Shown here piece after piece: positions 1,446 to 30,000 of a DNA stretch of 42,022 bases. The DNA comes from an uncultured Schlesneria sp. (lineage in GTDB: Bacteria; Planctomycetota; Planctomycetia; Planctomycetales; Planctomycetaceae), in contig CAILLA010000122.1 of assembly GCA_903834925.1 (NCBI GenBank), positions 1-42,022 on the forward strand, in the 5' to 3' direction. The position numbers were made by a program, and so were the translations under genes. The notes under the pieces were generated by a model. The model did no database searches. It was not told the origin of the DNA and saw only the letters and a list, made by a program, of their open reading frames with translations. Every line of letters starts with the position of its first letter. The first letter of the stretch is position 1.

Positions 1446-2456
1446 TCACCCACCAATCGAGTACATCGGTCGTTCAGGTTGGATGAAGCGGGCGGTGTTG
1501 ATTTCGTGGCCTTCTTTCTTGGCTGCGACACTGGAACGGATTGCGTTTGCGATCTGATCGTCCGGGGCCTGACCACGCAACAGGCTGCGGACGTCTGTCT
1601 CTTCCATGCTGAAGAGGCAGTTACGCAGTTTCCCGTCGGCGGTGATTCGTATCCGGTTGCAACTCATGCAAAAGGGCTGGCTAACGGATGCAATGAATCC
1701 GATCCGACCGACTCCGTCGTCGAATTCAAATTCGGTCGCTGGTCCGCCGTGCCCGCTGGCTGATTCCTCTTCGATCGGTCTCAGCGGCATGATCGACGAA
1801 GAAAGAGTTTCGATGATCTCGTGGGCGAACAATACCTTGCCCCGTTCCCAGGCATTGTCGGCGTCGAGTGGCATGTATTCGATGAAGCGGACTTCGACTC
1901 CCGTTTCACGGGCGAAATGACCGAACGGGACGATTTCGTCCTCCGTCATTCCGCGAACGGAAACGGCGTTGATTTTCACCGGATCAAAACCGGCTCGCTG
2001 TGCCGCGCGGATTCCTTCGATCACCTGTTCGAATCCGTCTCGACGAGTGAACTTCTTGAATTTCTCGGGAGTCAACGCGTCCAGACTGACGTTGATCCGG
2101 CGCAAGCCCGCGTCGTACAAGCCCTGAGCCTGTTGGGCGAGCATAATTCCATTCGTCGTCAGGCCGATGTCTTTCACGCCGGGAATCGACGCCAGTTTGG
2201 CGACGAGTGTATTCAACTCGCGGCGGACGAGGGGTTCGCCTCCCGTCAGTCGCAGCTTGTCGATTCCCATTGGGACCGCCACGCGGACAAACCGCTCGAT
2301 TTCTTCAAACGTCAGCAGTTCTGATTTGTCCATGAACTGCACGTCTTCGGCAGGCATGCAGTAAAAACAACGAATGTTGCAGCGATCCGTGACGCTGATT
2401 CGCAGGTTGTTATGCAACCGCCCGAAGGAATCGATGAGTGGTAATTGTGCGCTCAT
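1446..2456 (-). CDS. moaA: GTP 3',8-cyclase MoaA (molybdenum cofactor biosynthesis)
   Basis: Radical-SAM enzyme for the first step of molybdenum cofactor synthesis: GTP to 3',8-cyclo-7,8-dihydro-GTP, which MoaC then converts to cyclic pyranopterin monophosphate. The N-terminal SAM cluster motif is CNIRCFYC (Cys26, Cys30, Cys33), followed by the SAM-binding GGEPLVR. The C-terminal second [4Fe-4S] cluster site is present as CMSC with a later Cys in GKLRNCLF. The protein ends in the Gly-Gly tail typical of active MoaA. Length (336 residues) is normal. The ATG start is about 18 residues before the first conserved strand, as in homologues. No other moa/moe gene is adjacent, so the pathway is scattered in this genome. 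Identification is firm. Confidence 0.97.
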   Translation of the reverse strand: MSAQLPLIDSFGRLHNNLRISVTDRCNIRCFYCMPAEDVQFMDKSELLTFEEIERFVRVAVPMGIDKLRLTGGEPLVRRELNTLVAKLASIPGVKDIGLTTNGIMLAQQAQGLYDAGLRRINVSLDALTPEKFKKFTRRDGFEQVIEGIRAAQRAGFDPVKINAVSVRGMTEDEIVPFGHFARETGVEVRFIEYMPLDADNAWERGKVLFAHEIIETLSSSIMPLRPIEEESASGHGGPATEFEFDDGVGRIGFIASVSQPFCMSCNRIRITADGKLRNCLFSMEETDVRSLLRGQAPDDQIANAIRSSVAAKKEGHEINTARFIQPERPMYSIGG

Positions 2457-2605
2457 TAAATGTTACGAAAGGAAGGTGGGGCGAAATTCGTAGAAAATTG
2501 TCTGGTCCGATATTCTACGCCATCCGATGGGGATTTTCGTCCCGATTCTGGAATTTGCTTAATATCGAGTCGATAAATCGTGACTGGTGCTGGTTCAAAG
2601 TCCCG

Positions 2606-2701
2606 TTAACGAGCGCCCCTGGGAACGGTCTTGTTAATGTTATTTGTGGCCGACGCGATATTTTCCCAAAACGTGAAACCCTCGATTTGATTGCGCTTCA
2701 T
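2606..2701 (-). CDS. Possible 31-residue peptide upstream of moaA
   Basis: An ATG preceded by GAAAGGAA at a six-base spacing opens a 31-codon frame on the moaA strand, ending about 150 bases before moaA. The product is polar, with a basic C-terminus, and has no signal or membrane segment. It could be a small protein, a leader peptide for moaA, or chance. The ribosome-binding site is the main support. Confidence 0.25.
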   Translation of the reverse strand: MKRNQIEGFTFWENIASATNNINKTVPRGAR

Positions 2702-2990
2702 CGTAGATTCCTTTCTACCCCGATCGTGGCTGGTTCGGGTATTTCCAGCTTCGTGTTGAACGCGATCAAGGGAAGACCAATTCCTGGCCAATTGGGGTGG
2801 CCACTTTCTGGCCACATCTCTGGTTTCGGATGACTCAAAATGGCCAAATGAATCCTGACGGAAGTTTTAGGTATTCGCGGCACATTGCCGACTCCGCATT
2901 GTAACACATTTCCCTGAAATGAGTTATGACGACGCATCCTAGCTAAACACGTCTCATGGACATCGACGTGCCGCGTTCCAGATCGGCATT

Positions 2991-3006
2991 CGGCATAAGG
3001 TCTGCA
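2991..3006 (+). promoter_or_regulatory. Weak sigma-54-like promoter before the SulP cluster
   Basis: The site CGGCATAAGGTCTGCA keeps the invariant GG and GC dinucleotides at the correct -24/-12 spacing but departs from consensus at several flanking positions. It would start transcription near 3017, about 57 bases before the first gene of the cluster. It is listed mainly because the sbtA transcript downstream has a better site of the same type. Confidence 0.3.
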
Positions 3007-3073
3007 TTCATTTAAGGAATGTCCGCTCGAATCGAACTAAACACATAAAACATCACTGCTGCGGAATTTGAAA

Positions 3074-3352
3074 ATGTCGATCGAATCATTATTTGCGATG
3101 ATCAATCAAGAGTTTCAGCCGCCGCAGTTGTTCTGTGCTGGCCTGCTTGCGTCGGTCGTCTGTTGCCTGATTGCCCTAATCGTCGAGTCCAAGTTTCGTC
3201 GACGGGAACTTCACCGGATCATTCCTCCGGGAAGTGAACTCGCCTATCGACAATTTCTTTCCGAACTGAATTCGGCACCTCGTCACATTGGCTTCGCCGG
3301 AGGTGAGGTTTACGACCTGGACGATTGCGATTTCCCTGCCAAATCCAACTGA
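3074..3352 (+). CDS. Small single-pass membrane protein at head of transporter cluster
   Basis: A 92-residue protein from ATG 3074; a TTG two codons upstream is the alternative start. One hydrophobic helix (about residues 18-38, 'FCAGLLASVVCCLIALIV') follows a short N-terminus and is followed by a basic patch (KFRRRELHR). This suggests a short N-terminus outside and a soluble C-terminus of about 50 residues in the cytoplasm. The tail is acidic at its end. It is unlike the three paralogous two-helix proteins of the cluster. It sits 49 bases before the next gene and is probably cotranscribed. A role as an accessory subunit or regulator of the SulP permease is inferred from position only; no family recognised. 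Confidence 0.6.
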   Translation: MSIESLFAMINQEFQPPQLFCAGLLASVVCCLIALIVESKFRRRELHRIIPPGSELAYRQFLSELNSAPRHIGFAGGEVYDLDDCDFPAKSN

Positions 3353-3401
3353 TTTCTAAAAGCTTTCCATCGAATACCCATTCATTCCAAGGAAATTCAA
3401 T

Positions 3402-3758
3402 ATGTCACGCGACTCACAAACTTCCAGCCGACCAGAATTGAACTCGACCAGCAAGATGTCGTTTGCCGTCGCAGCATGTGCCCTAGGTGCTGCCGCGATT
3501 GGATTGTTGATCAATCAGTGGATGACGGGCTGGATGGCCGTGGGTGGCATGGCGGGCTTGGGGTTATTTTATCTGGCGATTGGACTGCTGAATCTCGGTT
3601 CCGCGGAACCGTTATTTACTCATGAAAGCGATCTGATTGAGACCGCATCACATCGATTGTCGGGTGCAACAAACGTTGACGATCTGGCAACGAAACGACC
3701 GGAGGAAGCAGGGGTTGGCTCGCGATCCGACAAGCTGGCCAATGCCCACACGTCATGA
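3402..3758 (+). CDS. Two-helix membrane protein, paralogue 1 of 3
   Basis: 118 residues; ATG with AAGGAA at a good spacing. After a polar Ser/Thr-rich N-terminus come two hydrophobic segments (about residues 20-40 and 44-66) separated by a short Trp-containing turn with the motif GWMAVGGM, then GLFYLAIGLLNL. A polar tail of about 50 residues follows. The core is about two-thirds identical by eye to the gene at 8151 and clearly related to the one at 5679. The tail is the least conserved of the three and has lost most of the DNLxAEAV motif shared by the other two. The gene lies 180 bases before the SulP permease. The repeated pairing of this family with anion permeases suggests an accessory subunit; that is inference. 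Confidence 0.75.
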   Translation: MSRDSQTSSRPELNSTSKMSFAVAACALGAAAIGLLINQWMTGWMAVGGMAGLGLFYLAIGLLNLGSAEPLFTHESDLIETASHRLSGATNVDDLATKRPEEAGVGSRSDKLANAHTS

Positions 3759-3938
3759 CGAATCCGAGTTGCCAGAACAAGGATGTTGGCGAAAGGGATC
3801 GGTTTCCCTCGGATTCAATTTTGTTCTCCACGCGGAACTTTGTTGACTGACGAATGAGAGTTTTTTCTTTTTGCAACTCGTCGTCACAGCCTTCCGAATC
3901 GAACTGCAAAGTTCAAATACGCATTAAAGGATTTATGA

Positions 3939-5639
3939 ATGTCTTCTGACCATGTCGAATTGAACGAAAAGCCGCAGAATGGAATCGCGGGCTTGAAACA
4001 CCTGCGTAGCGATATTCTCTCTGGAATCGTTGTCTCGCTGGTCTCACTGCCGCTATCGTCGGGGATTGCGATTGCATCGGGTGTCCCACCAATCGTCGGA
4101 TTGATTTCCGCAATTATTGCAGGGTTTATCTTCCCGTTTATCGGCGGAGCGTACATGACGATCGCCGGACCAGCTGCCGGTCTGGCGCCTGCGATTATGG
4201 CCGTGATGATCGCACTGGGCGGAGCGGGCGACGCCGAACATGTCGGTGAAGGTTATAAGTTCCTGCTCGTCGTGATCTTTATCGTCGGCCTGTTGCAGGT
4301 GATCCTCAGTCTGCTCAAGCTGGCCCGGTTTGCCGCAATCATTCCTGTAACGGTTGTTGAAGGGATGCTCGCTTCGATCGGTCTGCTGATTATCGTGAAA
4401 CAACTTCCGAAGTTTTTCGGTTTCACCGGAAAGGTTCATGCTCATGAATTTATGGAATTCGTTACGGGCGTGCCGGAATATGCACAAGGGATGACAACAA
4501 AGGCATTTGCAGTGGCCTTTGCGAGTCTTGTCATGCTGTTCGTTTTCGGTTCATTGAAGAAATACAAGTTCTTTCAGATTGTTCCACCTCAGTTACTGGC
4601 CGTGATTTTTGGTGTGATCCTGGGTCAGATTGTTCACATTGGTGACCTCGGGCCAGGATTCTTGATCAAGCTTCCGGATAACCCATTTCACGGAATTCAT
4701 TCACCTGATTTCAGTGCGTTGCTGGCTCGTAGCGATTTGTGGCAGGCAGCGGCAGTTGGTGTGATCATGCTGACCATGATCGATGGTGTTGAATCGCTTG
4801 CCACGGCGATGGCGATTGACCGGATTGATCCTTACCATCGGAAATCCGATGCGAATCGGGTCTTGCTGGCGATGGGTGTATCCAACGTCGCTTCGAGTCT
4901 CGTTGGCGGTTTGACAATCATCCCCGGTGGGGTCAAGAGCAAGGCGAATATCGCGGCTGGGGGTCGTACCCTGTGGGCTAACTTCACAAACGCGGTTTGC
5001 CTGGTGATCTATCTGCTGTTCGGTGCGGCTTGGATTAACATGATCCCTCTCGGTGTGTTGGCTGCCGTTCTGATTTATACCGGTTGGAAGATGTGCGAGC
5101 CGCTGGTCTGGCGACACATGGCACACATCGGGAAAGAACAGGTTGTGATCTTCTCGTTCACCATCATCGTGACACTACTGACCGATCTGCTGGTTGGGAT
5201 CGCCGCAGGGGTCGCAGCAAATTTCGTACTGAGTACGTTGTTCTGTCGACATGCGATTTCCACTGCAACCGCGAGTGGCGTGAAGAATCTTTCGCTGGCG
5301 AAATGCATGGGAGACTTCTTCCGTAATCCGGTCGTCAACCGCGAATACTGTGATGGTGTTTATCATATGTACGTCGACAAACCGCTAGTCTGTTTCAATA
5401 CCATGCAACTTTCGGAAGAACTCGACGAGATTCCATCAGACGTCAAAGCCGTTCAAGTTCATCTTGACGAACGAGTCACGTTGATTGACCACACCGCTGC
5501 TGAAAACTTGATGCATGCCATCAAGGAATATTCACACTCAAACGTCCCGGTTGAAATCGTTGGAATTGACCACCTCGAACCGTTGTCACACTACGACGCT
5601 TGTGTGCGAGTCGCCTCGCCGACAGCTCAATCTGCATAA
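3939..5639 (+). CDS. SulP family inorganic anion permease (BicA-like, candidate bicarbonate transporter)
   Basis: 566 residues; ATG preceded by AAAGGA. This is a SulP/SLC26 secondary transporter of the cytoplasmic membrane: about 12 hydrophobic segments (residues 25-430) with the family's first-repeat signature (SGIAIASGVPPIVGL, then a GPAAGL turn) and the later DPYHRKSDANR and VKSKANIAAGG stretches. A STAS-like C-terminal domain (about residues 475-555) contains LIDHTAAENL, matching the usual nucleotide/regulatory loop. SulP members carry sulfate, bicarbonate or other anions; bicarbonate is favoured here because an SbtA-type permease follows in the same cluster. No carbonic anhydrase is fused or adjacent. 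It resembles the second SulP at 28381 but is clearly diverged from it. Confidence 0.88.
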   Translation: MSSDHVELNEKPQNGIAGLKHLRSDILSGIVVSLVSLPLSSGIAIASGVPPIVGLISAIIAGFIFPFIGGAYMTIAGPAAGLAPAIMAVMIALGGAGDAEHVGEGYKFLLVVIFIVGLLQVILSLLKLARFAAIIPVTVVEGMLASIGLLIIVKQLPKFFGFTGKVHAHEFMEFVTGVPEYAQGMTTKAFAVAFASLVMLFVFGSLKKYKFFQIVPPQLLAVIFGVILGQIVHIGDLGPGFLIKLPDNPFHGIHSPDFSALLARSDLWQAAAVGVIMLTMIDGVESLATAMAIDRIDPYHRKSDANRVLLAMGVSNVASSLVGGLTIIPGGVKSKANIAAGGRTLWANFTNAVCLVIYLLFGAAWINMIPLGVLAAVLIYTGWKMCEPLVWRHMAHIGKEQVVIFSFTIIVTLLTDLLVGIAAGVAANFVLSTLFCRHAISTATASGVKNLSLAKCMGDFFRNPVVNREYCDGVYHMYVDKPLVCFNTMQLSEELDEIPSDVKAVQVHLDERVTLIDHTAAENLMHAIKEYSHSNVPVEIVGIDHLEPLSHYDACVRVASPTAQSA

Positions 5640-5678
5640 CTTCAATTTCAAAACCAATACTGTTTCCGTCCCAAATTC

Positions 5679-6026
5679 ATGAAAGTTAAGACAATGTCTC
5701 ACAATGTTCAGTCCGCCACACGCCTTTCAATGAACCCCGTTGCCTTAAGCAGCATTTCGGTTGCGATTTGTTCGTTCGGTGCTGCCGTGCTTGGCCTCCC
5801 TTTCAGCCACTGGCCAGCCGGGGGACTCGCAGGAGTTGGAGCGTTCTATCTTGTCGTGGGCTTGGTCAGTTGGGCGACTTCGAAATCCGCTGGTCACGAG
5901 ACCGGAATTGAAACCAGTCACATAACAGCAGGTGCAGATAACCTGGTTGCCGAAGCCGTCGGAAACACTCGTGAAACGGCATCCCCAGCACGACGTGCTC
6001 ATGAGCTTGTTGGTGCTCAACACTAA
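5679..6026 (+). CDS. Two-helix membrane protein, paralogue 2 of 3
   Basis: 115 residues, starting 39 bases after the SulP stop, so almost certainly in its operon. ATG 5679 is used; a second ATG at 5694 is possible. Two hydrophobic segments (about residues 24-45 and 47-68) contain the same core as the sister genes, here HWPAGGLAGVGAFYLVVGLV. The tail carries DNLVAEAV, which recurs as DNLYAEAV in the gene at 8151. It is the most diverged of the trio in its first helix. A strong hairpin 110 bases downstream ends the unit. Function unknown; partner of the SulP permease by position. Confidence 0.72.
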   Translation: MKVKTMSHNVQSATRLSMNPVALSSISVAICSFGAAVLGLPFSHWPAGGLAGVGAFYLVVGLVSWATSKSAGHETGIETSHITAGADNLVAEAVGNTRETASPARRAHELVGAQH

Positions 6027-6138
6027 GCCTTACATCGCAAAACGCGTATGCTTCAGCCATCATGCAACATATATCGTCAGTGCTCGGCTTGGTGCTGTCA
6101 GCGCTGAAGTAGATCCAAGAATTCTGTCGATACGTAAA

Positions 6139-6183
6139 AAATGACAAGCAGCCAGTGGGTAAACCGCTGGCTGCTTGTCATTT
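6139..6183 (+). terminator. Strong hairpin after the SulP operon
   Basis: A perfect 17-bp stem (6139-6155 pairing with 6167-6183; arms AAATGACAAGCAGCCAG and its complement) with an 11-base loop. A run of six A precedes it but only three T follow, so it would end transcription more readily on the minus strand or act as a 3' stabiliser. It separates the SulP operon from the sbtA promoter region. Confidence 0.7.
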
Positions 6184-6275
6184 GCATTAATGGTATGACG
6201 GCAATTTGGCTTCTATGAATGGACCTCAGCTGTCTCACGTTTCACGACGTCTTTCGTGCCAGCAGACAAAGCACG

Positions 6276-6289
6276 AATTGCGCGCAATT
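6276..6289. promoter_or_regulatory. Palindrome, candidate upstream activator site for sbtA
   Basis: AATTGCGCGCAATT is a perfect 14-bp palindrome, about 200 bases before the predicted transcription start of sbtA. Sigma-54 promoters need an enhancer-binding activator whose sites usually lie 100-200 bases upstream. The assignment to such a site is inference. Confidence 0.35.
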
Positions 6290-6459
6290 TCCGAAATGCT
6301 TTGGGGTTTACGCAAGAAATCGCCCGTCTGTTCTAAGCGGTTGTTGAATTCGATTTCTGTCGTAAGTTTCTTTGTATAAGCTGGTTGCGTCAATCATTGC
6401 GTGTTTTCAGTAGATTTTTTATCGCAGCGTTCCCTGACGACTTAGACAGATTTCGGATA

Positions 6460-6475
6460 TGGCACAAGTCGTGCT
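6460..6475 (+). promoter_or_regulatory. Sigma-54 promoter of sbtA
   Basis: TGGCACAAGTCGTGCT matches the RpoN consensus TGGCACG-N4-TTGCW with the invariant GG and GC at exact spacing; the mismatches are G to A at the seventh position and the first T of TTGC. Transcription would start near 6486, giving a leader of about 74 bases before the GTG start of sbtA. Confidence 0.6.
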
Positions 6476-6559
6476 TTCGTCTTCCCGAAACCCTGTGACT
6501 CCTACTTTTGTTGTTGAGTCATCGTCCTGGGGATTTGTTTCTTGTTTGGAGAAGGCGCC

Positions 6560-8011
6560 GTGCTTCACGAGTTCATTGATAATTTCACCCACAATCTGTT
6601 TAAACCGCTGTTGCTGTTTTTCTATGCCGGGTTCCTGATTCCCATGTTTCATGTGAAGCTCGAATTCCCCAAGGCGGTTTATCAAGGTCTGACAATTTAC
6701 TTGCTCTTGGCGATTGGTTGGAAAGGTGGCGAAGAACTGGCTGGCCTTGAGCCTGAGCTTTACGGGCAGGCTGCAGGTTTCATGATCATCGGATTCTTCA
6801 CGAACTTTGCGATCGGTATCGCGGCTTACACTGCACTGCGATGGACTACGAAAATTCGCCAGGTTGACGCTGCCACAGTCGCAGGTTACTACGGCTCTGA
6901 CTCGGCTGGTACATTCGTGACGGCAATGGGGGTTCTGACGGCTGGTCACATCGCGTTCGCTCCCTACATGCCGGTTTTGCTGGCTGTGATGGAAATTCCT
7001 GGTTGCCTTGTTGCTCTTTATCTCGTCGCGAAAATGCGTGAGAAGGGAATGGATGCCGCCGGGAACATGCCAGGTGAAACCGGTTACAATCGGTTCCGTG
7101 AAGCGATGATTGCTTCGCCACGTCACGTTGGTACCGATGAAGAACATGACGAATATGATCACGAAGAGTTCTCGGAAGAAGAGCTCGAAGAAGAGTTAGT
7201 GACCGCCGGTGCAGGGAATGGCAAAGTTCGGGCTGCTCGATCGAATTCGACGATCATTCGTTCGTCTGGTGGTTCTGCCGGTCGAGGTGGTTCAAAGGCA
7301 TCTCACGGTTCCGGATCAAACGGAAATGGTTCAGCAGGCGCTGGTTCTCTTAGTGGATCCACCAGCGATGACGAAATGGACGCGATGCTCGCTCTTCAGG
7401 AAGTTAATCTTAACAAAGGTGGCGAGTCTGCAAAGAAAAAGGGTGGCTCTTTCCTCAATCCTACATTGTTGCATGAAGTCTTTTTGAACCCAGGGATCTT
7501 CCTGCTATTTGCCGGAATCACCATTGGTTTCATTTCGCGATTGCAAGGTGAAAAAGTGACTCAGACGGACGATGCATTGTTCGTCCACTTGTTCCACGGT
7601 TTGCTATGTATATTCCTGCTCGAAATGGGGATGACCGCTTCGAAGAAGCTGAAGGACCTTGGGAACGCGGGATGGCAGTTCGTAACCTTCGCCCTTGTTG
7701 CCCCTAACTTGTTTGCAACTTGTGGCATGCTGATCGCGCACGGATACAGCATGGTGCTGGGACAACCCTTTGAGATTGGTACCTACGTCCTGTTCGCCGT
7801 GTTGTGCGGTGCCGCATCCTACATCGCTCTTCCCGCAGTACAGAGACTGGCGATCCCTGAAGCCAGCCCCACCCTTCCTTTGGCTGCTTCGCTAGGGGTG
7901 ACCTTCAGTTACAACGTCACGATCGGTATTCCCGTTTACATGATGATTGCGACAATCTTAACCAAGTATGCACCTGTTGCTGTTACCGCCGCTGCCGCAG
8001 TGGCGTCGTAG
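6560..8011 (+). CDS. sbtA: SbtA-type sodium-dependent bicarbonate permease with long central loop
   Basis: High-affinity Na+/bicarbonate symporter family (Sbt_1), in the cytoplasmic membrane. GTG 6560 is chosen because GGAGAAGG lies five bases before it; a TTG at 6542 is in frame but without a ribosome site. Two inverted membrane halves are clear. The first carries AGYYGSDSAGTFVTAMGVL (about residue 105). The second carries CGAASYIALPAVQRLAIPEA and GVTFSYNVTIGIPVY near the C-terminus, both hallmark substrate/Na+ regions. The halves are joined by about 105 residues (190-296), first strongly acidic (EEHDEYDHEEFSEEELEEEL), then Gly/Ser/Asn-rich. This makes 483 residues against about 370 in cyanobacterial SbtA. 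No SbtB (PII-like) gene is adjacent. Transport of bicarbonate is by family; not tested. Confidence 0.9.
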   Translation: MLHEFIDNFTHNLFKPLLLFFYAGFLIPMFHVKLEFPKAVYQGLTIYLLLAIGWKGGEELAGLEPELYGQAAGFMIIGFFTNFAIGIAAYTALRWTTKIRQVDAATVAGYYGSDSAGTFVTAMGVLTAGHIAFAPYMPVLLAVMEIPGCLVALYLVAKMREKGMDAAGNMPGETGYNRFREAMIASPRHVGTDEEHDEYDHEEFSEEELEEELVTAGAGNGKVRAARSNSTIIRSSGGSAGRGGSKASHGSGSNGNGSAGAGSLSGSTSDDEMDAMLALQEVNLNKGGESAKKKGGSFLNPTLLHEVFLNPGIFLLFAGITIGFISRLQGEKVTQTDDALFVHLFHGLLCIFLLEMGMTASKKLKDLGNAGWQFVTFALVAPNLFATCGMLIAHGYSMVLGQPFEIGTYVLFAVLCGAASYIALPAVQRLAIPEASPTLPLAASLGVTFSYNVTIGIPVYMMIATILTKYAPVAVTAAAAVAS

Positions 8012-8033
8012 TCGACCCTCGACGAGTTGATTT

Positions 8034-8072
8034 CTGGCCGGGTACATATGGCTGTCGTATGTACCCGGCCAG
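8034..8072 (+). terminator. Hairpin after sbtA
   Basis: A perfect 15-bp stem (8034-8048 with 8058-8072; arm CTGGCCGGGTACATA) and a nine-base loop, starting 23 bases after the sbtA stop. There is no T-run, so it may stabilise the sbtA 3' end and lower expression of the small gene downstream rather than stop transcription fully. Confidence 0.55.
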
Positions 8073-8150
8073 TATCACGTTGACAGTTCATGCCCCCAAT
8101 GATTCGACCCAAATGGGTTTTGAAGATTTTTCGACTGTGAGTCTAATTAA

Positions 8151-8507
8151 ATGCCTAAGTTGGCCAAATCAAATTCTGAACTCCCAATGAGTCCTGCGAG
8201 CCAGATGTCGTTCGCAATTTCAGCCTGTGCATTCGCTGCGGCCGGAATCGGGACCGTTGTTAATCACTGGCTGACAGGCTGGATGGCCGTCGGAGGAATG
8301 TCTGGTGTTGGACTGTTCTACCTGGCTGTGGGAATTCTGAACCTTCGGTCACACAATACCTTTGATGACGAAGAATCGATGACAAGTGTTAGTCAACGAA
8401 CCGCAAGATCGGATAACCTTTACGCAGAAGCGGTTTCACGGCCAAGAAATGATGCGGCATCGAAACCTGAATCATTCACTTCGATCAAAGTGAACCAGAA
8501 TCACTGA
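8151..8507 (+). CDS. Two-helix membrane protein, paralogue 3 of 3
   Basis: 118 residues from ATG 8151, with no clear ribosome site. It shares the two-helix core with the gene at 3402 almost throughout (QMSFAISACAFAAAGIG, then TGWMAVGGMSGVGLFYLAVG), and the tail motif DNLYAEAV with the gene at 5679. It follows sbtA by 139 bases, with a hairpin between. The conserved core lies at the second helix and the turn before it, suggesting that this face binds a partner. Placement after SbtA, as the sister genes flank SulP, argues for a shared accessory role; the function itself is unknown. Confidence 0.75.
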   Translation: MPKLAKSNSELPMSPASQMSFAISACAFAAAGIGTVVNHWLTGWMAVGGMSGVGLFYLAVGILNLRSHNTFDDEESMTSVSQRTARSDNLYAEAVSRPRNDAASKPESFTSIKVNQNH

Positions 8508-8550
8508 AGGAAAGTCGTCACTCGTTTCAGCCTGACTGATCGCTCCGAAT

Positions 8551-8590
8551 AAAAAAAGGCCCGTGTGAAATTTCACGCGGGCCTTTTTCT
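8551..8590. terminator. Bidirectional terminator between transporter cluster and suf operon
   Basis: A-run, long GC-rich stem, T-run: AAAAAGGCCCG (8553-8563) pairs with CGGGCCTTTTT (8578-8588), and the interior GTGAAATTTCAC is itself self-complementary. The symmetric A and T runs let it act on both strands, fitting its place between convergent transcripts. Confidence 0.9.
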
Positions 8591-8606
8591 ATTGATTAAT
8601 CCGGTT

Positions 8607-9137
8607 CTAAAAAATTCCCAGTTGGTCGCGGGCATCGTCCGTCATACGATCCGGTGTCCACGGGGGTGACATCGTCAGCTTGATTTCGGCGACATCGATC
8701 CCCGAGATCTTCTCCAGGGCCATTTTTGCCTGTGAAATGATCTGGGGGCCGGCGGGGCAAGCGGGGCTGGTTAATGTCATCTCGACCAGCGCCTTACGTT
8801 CAGTATGATTGATCGAGTAGACCAACCCCAAATCAACGATGTTAATCATCAGCTCCGGATCAATAACTGTGCGCAACGCGTCGATCAGCGTGGCATCGTC
8901 CGGTGTACCCGTCTCATCAGAGGCAACAGCGTCAGCTGCGGGAACTTGTCCGCTCGAACAGCTTTCCGCTTGCGAGGTCGCGGCAGCAGTCGATGCGGTC
9001 GAGCCTGAATGACAGCAGGCTTCCGTGTCGGTCGTAGGAGCTGCACTGACGATCGGAAGCGCGTCGGCTTTCGCCGCAGTTTCGGAACAGCATCCCGTCG
9101 CGGGAGCAATCGGAATCGATAGAGTTTCAGAGGTCAT
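8607..9137 (-). CDS. sufT: SufT-like DUF59/MIP18 iron-sulfur assembly protein with Cys-rich N-terminus
   Basis: 176 residues. The C-terminal half (about 78-176) is a DUF59/MIP18 domain: VIDPELMINIVDLGLVY, then LTSPACPAGPQI with the conserved Cys, and a terminal TPDRMTDDARDQLGIF. In Bacillota and actinobacteria such SufT proteins assist Fe-S maturation. The N-terminal 75 residues are low-complexity Ala/Thr/Ser with CC pairs at 16-17 and 41-42 and Cys60, unlike standard SufT. It is the last gene of the suf operon and overlaps the Rieske gene by four bases (ATGA), so translation is coupled. The extension may hold a cluster or metal; that is inference. Confidence 0.88.
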   Translation of the reverse strand: MTSETLSIPIAPATGCCSETAAKADALPIVSAAPTTDTEACCHSGSTASTAAATSQAESCSSGQVPAADAVASDETGTPDDATLIDALRTVIDPELMINIVDLGLVYSINHTERKALVEMTLTSPACPAGPQIISQAKMALEKISGIDVAEIKLTMSPPWTPDRMTDDARDQLGIF

Positions 9138-9448
9138 GGTCGGGGTCTCACAAAAATTTCGCCGTCACGAACTTGAACTTCAAATGTTGAAATGGGTTCA
9201 ATCGCGGGCATACAGAGCGGCCGGCCTGTGCTCAGATCGAACCTTGCACCATGTCGTGGACACGTGATCGAACAGTGATCAACCGGGCCATTCGTTAATG
9301 GCTGGCCATCGTGCGAACAAACATCTTCGACCGCAAAAAACTCGTCACCAATACGAATCAACAACGAGGGAATATCGTCAATGAGGATCGATAACCGGCC
9401 GTCGGACGGGATTTCACTGATGGCGGCAACTCGTTCAAAGTCTGGCAT
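9134..9448 (-). CDS. Rieske-type [2Fe-2S] ferredoxin
   Basis: A small soluble electron-transfer protein of the non-haem Rieske type. The two ligand boxes are CSHDGQPL (Cys-x-His) and CPRHGARFD (Cys-x2-His), 18 residues apart, as in NirD/aromatic-dioxygenase ferredoxins. ATG 9448 (104 residues) is preferred over a TTG three codons earlier. It lies 23 bases after sufD and overlaps sufT by four bases. Such Rieske proteins are often found inside suf operons between SufD/SufS and SufT in other bacteria, where they may supply electrons for cluster assembly; the partner is not visible here. Confidence 0.92.
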   Translation of the reverse strand: MPDFERVAAISEIPSDGRLSILIDDIPSLLIRIGDEFFAVEDVCSHDGQPLTNGPVDHCSITCPRHGARFDLSTGRPLCMPAIEPISTFEVQVRDGEIFVRPRP

Positions 9449-28380: not shown

Positions 28381-30000
28381 CTATCCGGCCGTTTTTCGCT
28401 GGGCTGAATGAGGGTGATTTGACAGGCCCGCGTGCGAGTCCAGGCCACGGATCAGGAGTTTGCGGTTCTTTTGTTCGAAGTCCAGTTGAAGCTCGTGTAA
28501 CTTTTCCATGACAGTGTGGTCAACGAGACGGGTTTCTGACAGGTCCAGGATGACCGATCGATTCGGATTGATTGAGAGGAGTTTTCGGCGAAGTCCAATC
28601 CACGTGCTGAAGACGGCTGAGTTCTTAACATGAACCAGAGTCGTCGAGCTGTCGGGTTCGGTAATCTCAATATTTGGCGTGAACAGCGACCCGATGGGTG
28701 CTCCGTTCCAGATGTGGAATGCGGCTTTGACTGCGATGCCGATGCCAACGCCGATCAACAGGTCCGTGGCCAGGACGCCCAGGATCGTCGCGACGAAAAT
28801 GGCGAGTTGTTCTCGTCCGACTTTGTACATATGAATGAACTCATGCGGCGATGCCAGTCGATATCCGGTAAAGACCAGCATGGCCGCGAGAGAGGCATTC
28901 GGAATCATCTTGATCAGGCCGGGCAGCATGGATACGAACAGCAGTAGAAACAGGCCGTGAAACAGATTGGCAAATCGACTGCGAGCTCCGTTATCAATGT
29001 TGGCTTTACTGCGGACAATCTCGGAAATCATGGGGAGTCCGCCGACGCACGACGCGAGCGTATTGGCGATCCCGATACCAAGCAGGTCGCGGTTATAGTC
29101 GGTCTTTCGCCGATAGGGGTCGAGCAAGTCAACCGCTTTCGCACTGAGCAGCGATTCCAGCGTACCGATCAGCGAGAACATGAGGACATACTGTAACGCA
29201 TGATAAAGATGGCTTTGACTGAACGCGCCTTGAAAGTCGGGGAATGCGATCCCCTGACGAATATCATTAGGAACATTCACGTATGCCGTCGGATCTAATT
29301 TGGCGGCGAAAACATAGCCAAGCAGGATTCCCATACCGACGACGATCAATTGAGCCGGAGCTTTTTTGATCCACGCCAGTTTTTTTGGCATCATGGCCCA
29401 GACAATCATGATCCCCAGGCAGGTCAATCCAATCGTGGCGACTTCCGGTTTGAGATGCTGGATCGCTTCCGGGATCGCTTCAATTACCTTCAGTGGTTCT
29501 TTTTCTTTTGTGGGGTTACCGATCATGGCGTGGAATTGCTTGGATGCAATCATGATTCCGATCGATGCCAGCATGCCATGAACGGCGGCGGTCGGAAAGA
29601 ATTCGCTAAGGATGCCTGATCGGACAATTGCCAGTCCGATCTGAACCAGTCCGGCAACGACTCCAACCGCCAATGCCATCTGATAAGCGAGATTATCGGC
29701 GACCTTGTCTTCGCCACCAGTAAAACCAAATCCATCGACACAGCCCAGGACGATGACAATCAACCCGGCGGCCGGGCCTTTGATGGTGAGTTCAGAATTA
29801 CTGATCCAGGGGACGAGCAGACCACCAATAATTGCGGTGAAGATCCCAGCAATGGGTGGATAGCCGCTGGCTTTTGCAATTCCCAGGCAAAGCGGCATCG
29901 CGATGAGAAAGACGAGGAACCCTGATTTGATGTCAGCCGAAAAGTTTTCACGGAGCCCGGACAGGCCTGGCTTGGGAACTGACTTACTGGCATAAGACAT
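28381..30000 (-). CDS. Second SulP family anion permease
   Basis: 539 residues. The first repeat signature is GIAKASGYPPIAGIFTAIIGG, followed by TIKGPAAGLIVIVLG; later come LLDPYRRKTDYNRDLLG and VRSKANIDNGARSRFANL. About 12 hydrophobic segments precede a STAS domain (about residues 445-530) with SVILDLSETRLVDHTVMEKLHEL. The Asp-His in the STAS loop and order of motifs match the SulP at 3939, but the proteins are only moderately alike. Sulfate, bicarbonate or other anions are possible. None of the small two-helix proteins or sbtA lies near this copy. Start ATG 30000. Confidence 0.9.
   Translation of the reverse strand: MSYASKSVPKPGLSGLRENFSADIKSGFLVFLIAMPLCLGIAKASGYPPIAGIFTAIIGGLLVPWISNSELTIKGPAAGLIVIVLGCVDGFGFTGGEDKVADNLAYQMALAVGVVAGLVQIGLAIVRSGILSEFFPTAAVHGMLASIGIMIASKQFHAMIGNPTKEKEPLKVIEAIPEAIQHLKPEVATIGLTCLGIMIVWAMMPKKLAWIKKAPAQLIVVGMGILLGYVFAAKLDPTAYVNVPNDIRQGIAFPDFQGAFSQSHLYHALQYVLMFSLIGTLESLLSAKAVDLLDPYRRKTDYNRDLLGIGIANTLASCVGGLPMISEIVRSKANIDNGARSRFANLFHGLFLLLFVSMLPGLIKMIPNASLAAMLVFTGYRLASPHEFIHMYKVGREQLAIFVATILGVLATDLLIGVGIGIAVKAAFHIWNGAPIGSLFTPNIEITEPDSSTTLVHVKNSAVFSTWIGLRRKLLSINPNRSVILDLSETRLVDHTVMEKLHELQLDFEQKNRKLLIRGLDSHAGLSNHPHSAQRKTAG

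Follow-up and report, generated by a model that had tools for sequence, protein, structure and literature searches.

Three small two-helix membrane proteins, sm1, sm2 and sm3, are encoded beside an SbtA permease gene and a SulP permease gene at positions 3074-8507 of a 42,022-nucleotide contig (hereafter, the window) from a 9.0 Mb freshwater planctomycete genome (G000; probably Schlesneria, a genus within Planctomycetaceae, or a close relative of it). These proteins belong to a real and conserved family, whose genes, across the genomes searched, adjoin SbtA or SulP genes with few exceptions. An accessory role of the family is strongly supported as an association; as a mechanism, it is a proposal. 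Specifically, by analogy with SbtC, the small proteins may be membrane subunits that tune bicarbonate-type transporters, an interpretation to which we give slightly better than an even chance. A preliminary description of this DNA had placed SulP and SbtA in one block, with a small paralogue after each transporter and a third one before SulP, and this gene content and order were confirmed, the transporters matching PF00916 and PF05982 above the respective cut-offs. As that description also stated, the block shows neither an SbtB nor a carbonic anhydrase gene; it comprises six same-strand genes in the order orf92, sm1, SulP, sm2, SbtA and sm3. The features are as follows:

3074..3352, + strand: orf92, a single predicted helix followed by residues like the start of the SbtA cytoplasmic loop (Y..F......APRHIG)
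3402..3758, + strand: sm1, two-helix protein of the membrane, encoded ahead of SulP
3939..5639, + strand: SulP family permease, 566 aa (PF00916, E 4e-53)
5694..6026, + strand: sm2, two-helix protein downstream of SulP, with a short turn and a DNLVAEAV tail
6139..6183, + strand: strong hairpin after sm2 (-38 kcal/mol, z -8.7, 0/200 shuffles)
6542..8011, + strand: SbtA family permease (PF05982, E 2e-93), whose halves are joined by a charged, Gly/Ser-rich loop
7004..7132, + strand: SbtA helix end and start of the cytoplasmic loop (…GYNRFREAMIASPRHVG), resembled by orf92
8034..8072, + strand: hairpin between SbtA and sm3, 17 pairs, no T run (-35.6 kcal/mol, z -8.0)
8151..8507, + strand: sm3, two-helix protein downstream of SbtA, with a DNLYAEAV tail
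8553..8588, + strand: intrinsic-terminator-like hairpin with a T run; similar hairpins occur in the three clusters compared

Sequence and Conservation of the Small Proteins

The sm2 and sm3 proteins are 36% and 42% identical to sm1, respectively. Each of the three has two hydrophobic stretches, the second of which carries G..G.G.FYL, and the turn between the helices is short. In sm2 this turn is five columns shorter (SHW-PAGG) and lacks GWMAV, which corrects the shared core given in the preliminary description. The DNLxAEAV tail was found, as had been noted, in two paralogues, sm2 and sm3, and the tail of sm1 is NVDDLATKRPEE.

All six genes were present in the same order in 5 of 15 same-genus genomes (G000, G034, G096, G109 and G118), the window's own included, and a profile of the three proteins matched relatives within the genus with E values as low as 1e-53. 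Orthologues were 76-87% identical between the window and G034, G109 and G118, and paralogues across those genomes were 31-48% identical, indicating that the duplications predate these species. The dN/dS ratios (six pairs per gene) were 0.04-0.09 for sm3, 0.08-0.14 for sm1, 0.08-0.18 for sm2 and 0.16-0.28 for orf92; sm1, sm2 and sm3 are paralogues under purifying selection. Given this selection and the retention of the cluster in five genomes, a chance likeness of the three proteins was rejected.

No convincing match for the small genes was obtained in Pfam, NCBIfam, PHROGs (searched with the window proteins only) or the PDB sequences, and on this ground the known small families were set aside as their identity. 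DUF202 reached 11.9 bits against a cut-off of 23.4, and DUF4345 and Phage_holin_3_6 each gave matches to 3 of 13 family members (best E 0.03 and 6e-4, respectively). In addition, the small proteins had no match to the P-II profile of Pfam and NCBIfam, for which two SbtB-like neighbours of other SbtA genes, matching PF00543, served as the positive control.

Occurrence of the Family beside Transporter Genes

An iterated profile search was seeded with the three window proteins and widened with the new members of each pass; the first pass covered 150 genomes, and the second pass onward 170 genomes of the taxonomic family. Beyond the five clusters, the first pass yielded G130 (E 5e-17), G025 (5e-11), and G104 and G084 (0.002 each). 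In G130, G025 and G084 the small gene immediately follows SbtA; in G104 it lies between a carbonic anhydrase gene (PF00484) and a different SulP gene, referred to below as the SulP37 type. New members of the second pass (G043, G115 and G090) and of the third pass (G149, G001 and G046) each lie directly before a SulP37-type gene. A carbonic anhydrase gene (PF00484) precedes the small gene in G043 and G115, and the small gene of G115 is split over two frames (E 9e-4). The placements found were the window gene order (5 genomes), directly downstream of SbtA (3) and directly upstream of a SulP37-type gene (7).

The profile search proposed in the preliminary description, in which the family might have turned up mostly away from transporters, located 25 places at E<=1e-4 in the third pass (170 genomes), and 24 of them adjoin SbtA or SulP, so that this refuting outcome did not occur. 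The exception, G095:C11 (E 2e-5), is beside neither. The transporter-adjacent members lie next to the gene and on the same strand, in seven genera and at two transporter families. These results bear on the idea that the small genes have nothing to do with the function of the transporters and simply travel along in the same neighbourhood. A passenger could well be missing from most homologous transporter loci, as the small gene was in those examined; however, the adjacency of 24 of 25 matches over such a range of genera and families, together with the purifying selection on the small genes, makes this idea very improbable.

The third pass comprised 43 places, that is, these 25 and 18 weaker ones. 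Two of the latter are the split G115 copy, six others (G063, G166, G149:C284, G109:C113, G105 and G057) had no transporter among their neighbours, and 10 were left out. Likewise, the weak first-pass matches G023, G033 and G055 (E 0.004-0.009) adjoin neither SbtA nor SulP. The weak matches of the second pass span E 0.003-0.007: G003 and G097 have no adjoining transporter, and the neighbourhoods of G022 and G128 were left out. No transporter adjoins G000:C57 (E 0.12). In a phylum sample of 392 genomes, two weak matches, G449 and G528 (3e-4 and 6e-4), were detected beyond the window's genome and G025, neither of them near a transporter; note that this search scored 11 candidates per genome and may miss rare members outside the taxonomic family. 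All weak matches away from transporters had E >=8e-4, except G095:C11, G449 and G528.

When SbtA-linked and SulP37-linked members were aligned apart and compared by hhalign, the score was 65.8, versus a maximum of 41.8 in 60 shuffles with columns permuted within 7-column windows. On this comparison, the SbtA-linked and SulP-linked members look like one family.

SbtA Genes, SbtB and the Small Protein

The window SbtA is a full-length match to its family (PF05982, 313.5 bits; gathering cut-off, 27), and matched the SbtA structure 7cye at E 7e-19. Its start codon is TTG at 6542 or some later codon. We examined the gene following SbtA in 61 further cases. The next gene was SbtB-like in 27, a small-family gene in 7 and neither in 27, and both were present in none. 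The window's own SbtA adds one, giving eight SbtA genes with an adjoining small protein, always downstream. In view of the 24 of 25 adjoining matches, the preliminary description's suggestion of a shared accessory distinct from SbtB is well supported as an association, and 0 of 61 SbtA genes have both. Note that the search gave 75 SbtA places, of which 11 short pieces were left out and one was the window's own; the 61 genes consist of 50 with flanks, one from G169 and 10 with 1.5 kb flanks, three full-length genes being left out. The 10 genes with 1.5 kb flanks divided into 5 SbtB-like and 5 neither. "SbtB-like" was assigned by position and PII profile, and two cases were confirmed by Pfam.

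In an SbtA tree of 49 rows, the seven small-protein SbtAs fell in one clade of 20 with a support of 94/95, just under the star of the tree tool, and none of these 20 rows has an SbtB-like neighbour. The small-protein label needs five changes on the tree, indicating that gain or loss recurred. The SbtB-like gene of locus L072, whose open frame extends far upstream, keeps its older label in the tree and is outside the small-protein clade. In addition, a search of 28 chosen genomes with the SbtB profile gave nothing better than E 1e-8 in G000, G034, G109 and G118, and the matches at about this value are probably general PII proteins.

Several other SbtA loci were observed. The window's genome has a second long-loop SbtA (L035, G000:C305:76098-77411) with neither an SbtB-like gene nor a small protein beside it. 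In L170 (G169:C670), of the same genus, about 2 kb separates an SbtA gene from a SulP gene of the same orientation, and the interval contains no small-family match. L073, L074 and L077 are pairs of SbtA and SbtB-like genes followed by carbonic anhydrase (PF00484 was tested in L073), and these carbonic anhydrases have an apparent Tat-type leader, as judged by eye.

SulP Genes and Carbonic Anhydrase

The window SulP belongs to PF00916 (181.1 bits; gathering cut-off, 23.2), and scored below the cut-off of the NCBIfam sulP subfamily model (168.9 versus 380.45). Its best solved match was 6ki1 (E 2e-29), which is BicA according to the cited literature and is deposited under the name low affinity sulfate transporter. 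No Pfam match to STAS was reported for the window SulP. SulP37-type genes were found at 52 places, and 33 loci were examined, 30 from that list and three found earlier. The small protein was present in 7 of the 33, carbonic anhydrase was upstream in 16, and both were present in 3.

A second SulP gene of the window (28381-30000, - strand) is 37% identical to the first and has no small-protein match nearby. In five loci of three other genera (L166, L167, L168, L169 and L172), a window-type SulP is followed by a protein of about 190-230 aa that has a soluble part besides one or two helices, possibly a second companion candidate. This protein was rejected as a distant relative of the small family, since its hhalign scores were 19.5 and 18.7 with probabilities of about 2%. 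Furthermore, SulP open frames of 666-691 aa with a C-terminal SbtB-like PII match, apparently SulP-SbtB fusions, were seen in G104:C98, G115:C23, G135:C1 (~7012508-7014421) and G096:C20 (~415223-417136). In G043 (locus L177, ~4320-4683), a PII-like gene lies upstream of a relative of the window SulP (46% identity), and matched the first SbtB profile at E 8.5e-12 and the second at 4e-8.

Similarity of orf92 to the SbtA Loop

The preliminary description recognized the three paralogues and left a fourth small gene of the block, orf92, undescribed. The idea that its product is a further paralogue of sm1, sm2 and sm3 was rejected (hhalign probability, 0.1%); the product matches the SbtA loop instead. 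The loop between the SbtA halves has 167 aa in the aligned segment, versus 38-55 in short SbtAs, and begins after the helix with GYNRFREAMIASPRHVG. The orf92 protein has one hydrophobic stretch, followed by LAYRQFLSELNSAPRHIG at the same distance from the helix. Profile comparison of orf92 with the SbtA loop by hhalign gave 96.8%. None of 2000 shuffles attained their direct score, either in the window or in G096, whose cluster is the most distant one; with the soluble half of orf92 alone, 1 of 2000 did. In each of the five genomes with the cluster, orf92 is its first gene. Judged by its sequence, orf92 either is a free copy of the SbtA helix and the beginning of the loop or closely mimics them, and this likeness is a previously unreported point.

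A candidate in which the small protein reads the PRH motif of the loop was rejected, since the pairing was not supported by co-occurrence. The motif is present in the SbtAs of L087-L089, which have no small protein, and missing from those of L034 and L038, which have one; the small-protein SbtA of L033 has the variant LPRHG. The partner of the motif is therefore not simply the small protein.

Transcription Signals

The cluster can be read as a pair of transcription units, orf92-sm1-SulP-sm2 and SbtA-sm3, because a hairpin follows sm2 and a terminator-like hairpin follows sm3; separate transcription is what these sequence features suggest. The hairpin at 6139..6183, a region also detected as self-complementary, possibly ends the first unit, and the one at 8553..8588 possibly ends the second. 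Hairpins also occur in the gap between sm2 and SbtA in L112 and L113, with a weaker one in L114. The hairpin at 8034..8072 was kept in 4 of 4 clusters compared with weak covariation; although conserved, it was rejected as a covariation-supported RNA because 130 of 500 shuffles attain its score, and it is possibly a processing or stability element. No sigma-70-type promoter was matched in 2400-8700, and no Rfam family at gathering scores in 2400-9200. Note that sm2 has an additional upstream ATG at 5679.

Substrate and Mode of Action

In the mechanism that we propose, the two-helix hairpin of the small protein would pack against the transporter in the membrane, and its soluble tail would change transport, by limiting uptake or back-leak or by steadying the complex. 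This task would be the one performed by cyanobacterial SbtB and SbtC. Because no SbtB gene follows SbtA in the clade described above, the small protein may be a substitute for SbtB in that clade. On the SulP side, orf92 may offer an SbtA-loop docking site to a common partner. A wider interpretation, in which Planctomycetaceae would have a third bicarbonate control besides SbtB and SbtC, composed of two-helix subunits on SbtA and SulP, orf92 as a trans-acting regulatory loop and a shared signal, is possible, but we hold it as doubtful. The cargo of both window transporters is most likely bicarbonate, which is likely for the group because carbonic anhydrase genes lie upstream of some SulP37-type genes and after the SbtB-linked SbtA of L073.

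A number of observations weigh against this proposal, and the first of them concern the substrate. Of the SbtA bicarbonate residues S114, Y140, S324 and S327, S114 and S324 are kept, and Y140 and S327 are replaced by L and A, respectively; with two of four residues kept, support for the substrate is partial. Among the BicA ligand residues T69, D258, T262, G300 and A301, as listed in PMC13249358 and with the 6ki1 chain numbering taken as shifted by one, T262 alone is kept in the window SulP; the others align with A, E, P and G. Furthermore, the NCBIfam BicA equivalog scored 158.8 bits on this SulP against a cut-off of 880. The cluster might thus import another anion, with SulP carrying sulfate and the SbtA-family protein another solute, and the small proteins would then be accessories unrelated to carbon. 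The changed positions in both transporters and the low equivalog score speak for this alternative. On the other hand, the same SbtA pattern (S, hydrophobic, S, A) was found in 50 of 50 aligned rows, rows with an SbtB-like neighbour among them. The SulP37-type genes with a small protein have PF00484 upstream in G104, G043 and G115, as do 16 of 33 loci type-wide. We regard the import of another anion as improbable. The bicarbonate substrate of the preliminary description did not gain direct support from the residues, and is supported indirectly by the carbonic anhydrase at 3 of 7 SulP37-type loci.

The remaining points concern how regularly the small protein accompanies the transporters. It is lacking at 26 of 33 SulP37-type loci (one of which, L254, has hardly any upstream sequence), at all 17 examined loci that carry a SulP of the window's clade outside the five clusters (some of these loci end at contig edges), and in 13 of 20 SbtA rows of its own clade. 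Since most SbtA and SulP relatives do without the small protein, it is an optional partner of both transporters. In addition, 4 of the 7 small-protein SulP37-type loci have no carbonic anhydrase nearby, and the five clusters are probably one inheritance rather than five events. As for SbtB, both kinds occur in G130, where the short SbtA adjoins an SbtB-like gene and the long one a small protein. In G096, one of the cluster genomes, a SulP protein ends in an SbtB-like domain. Replacement of SbtB by the small protein is therefore not a rule for all genomes. It goes with a particular SbtA, and not in every case with a genome-wide loss of SbtB.

This optional presence beside close transporter relatives also argues, although not decisively, against the small proteins being obligatory factors for assembly or stability, which would serve folding, oligomerization or protection from proteolysis and leave flux unregulated. 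Two short helices without a recognizable ligand-binding fold would suit such a task, and small membrane proteins that only stabilize are known, for example MgtU (PMC10710835). However, a separate copy for each transporter with conserved tails suggests specific interactions, though this too is not decisive. A purely assembling subunit appears rather unlikely to us.

Comparison with Known Systems

The proposed role as tuning subunits has its nearest counterpart in SbtC of Synechocystis PCC 6803, reported in 2026 as a small membrane protein encoded beside sbtAB in a subset of species, which, according to a commentary (PMC13360264), co-migrates with SbtA and SbtB and limits uptake and leak. Both are small membrane proteins whose genes adjoin sbtA in some species. 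SbtC is set apart by its description, having one possible helix and a gene upstream of sbtA together with SbtB, whereas the present family has two helices, lies downstream of SbtA with no SbtB beside it, and occurs also at SulP. SbtB resembles the family in being encoded directly downstream of SbtA and common to unrelated bicarbonate transporters; it was reported to interact with SbtA, BicA and CmpC (PMC13249358), and is therefore a precedent for one regulator of unrelated bicarbonate transporters. However, SbtB is a soluble trimer of the PII fold, whereas the small proteins have two helices and no PII match, and the two never followed the same SbtA among the 61 genes.

The transporters themselves also differ from their characterized relatives. 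The structure of cyanobacterial SbtA lacks Ser166-Trp212, where the window SbtA has its long charged loop (PMC8352866), and two of its four bicarbonate residues are changed in the window. The window SulP shares with BicA-type and other SulP/SLC26 bicarbonate transporters the PF00916 family and 6ki1 as the best solved match, but it falls under the BicA model cut-off, has mostly changed ligand residues and had no reported Pfam STAS match. Other small partners of transporters are shorter than the proteins described here. MgtS, MgtR and MgtU have a single helix each. These three and AcrZ, also a single helix, are short membrane proteins of 28-49 aa that attach to a transporter and modulate it, as proposed for the small family (PMC10710835).

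Implications

A literature search, which covered few subscription papers, gave no prior description resembling the small family and no paper on the control of bicarbonate uptake in Planctomycetota. The family is new, and its kind has one recent precedent, SbtC. Through SbtC, interest in small proteins beside bicarbonate transporters has recently arisen, and a commentary on it asks whether species without SbtC use an alternative protein (PMC13360264). The small family is a concrete candidate for a helper of this sort, and it connects two transporter families that are unrelated to each other. The likeness of orf92 to the SbtA loop offers a direct handle on the function of that loop. If it is true that one subunit serves both transporter folds, efforts to engineer bicarbonate uptake would gain a useful component.

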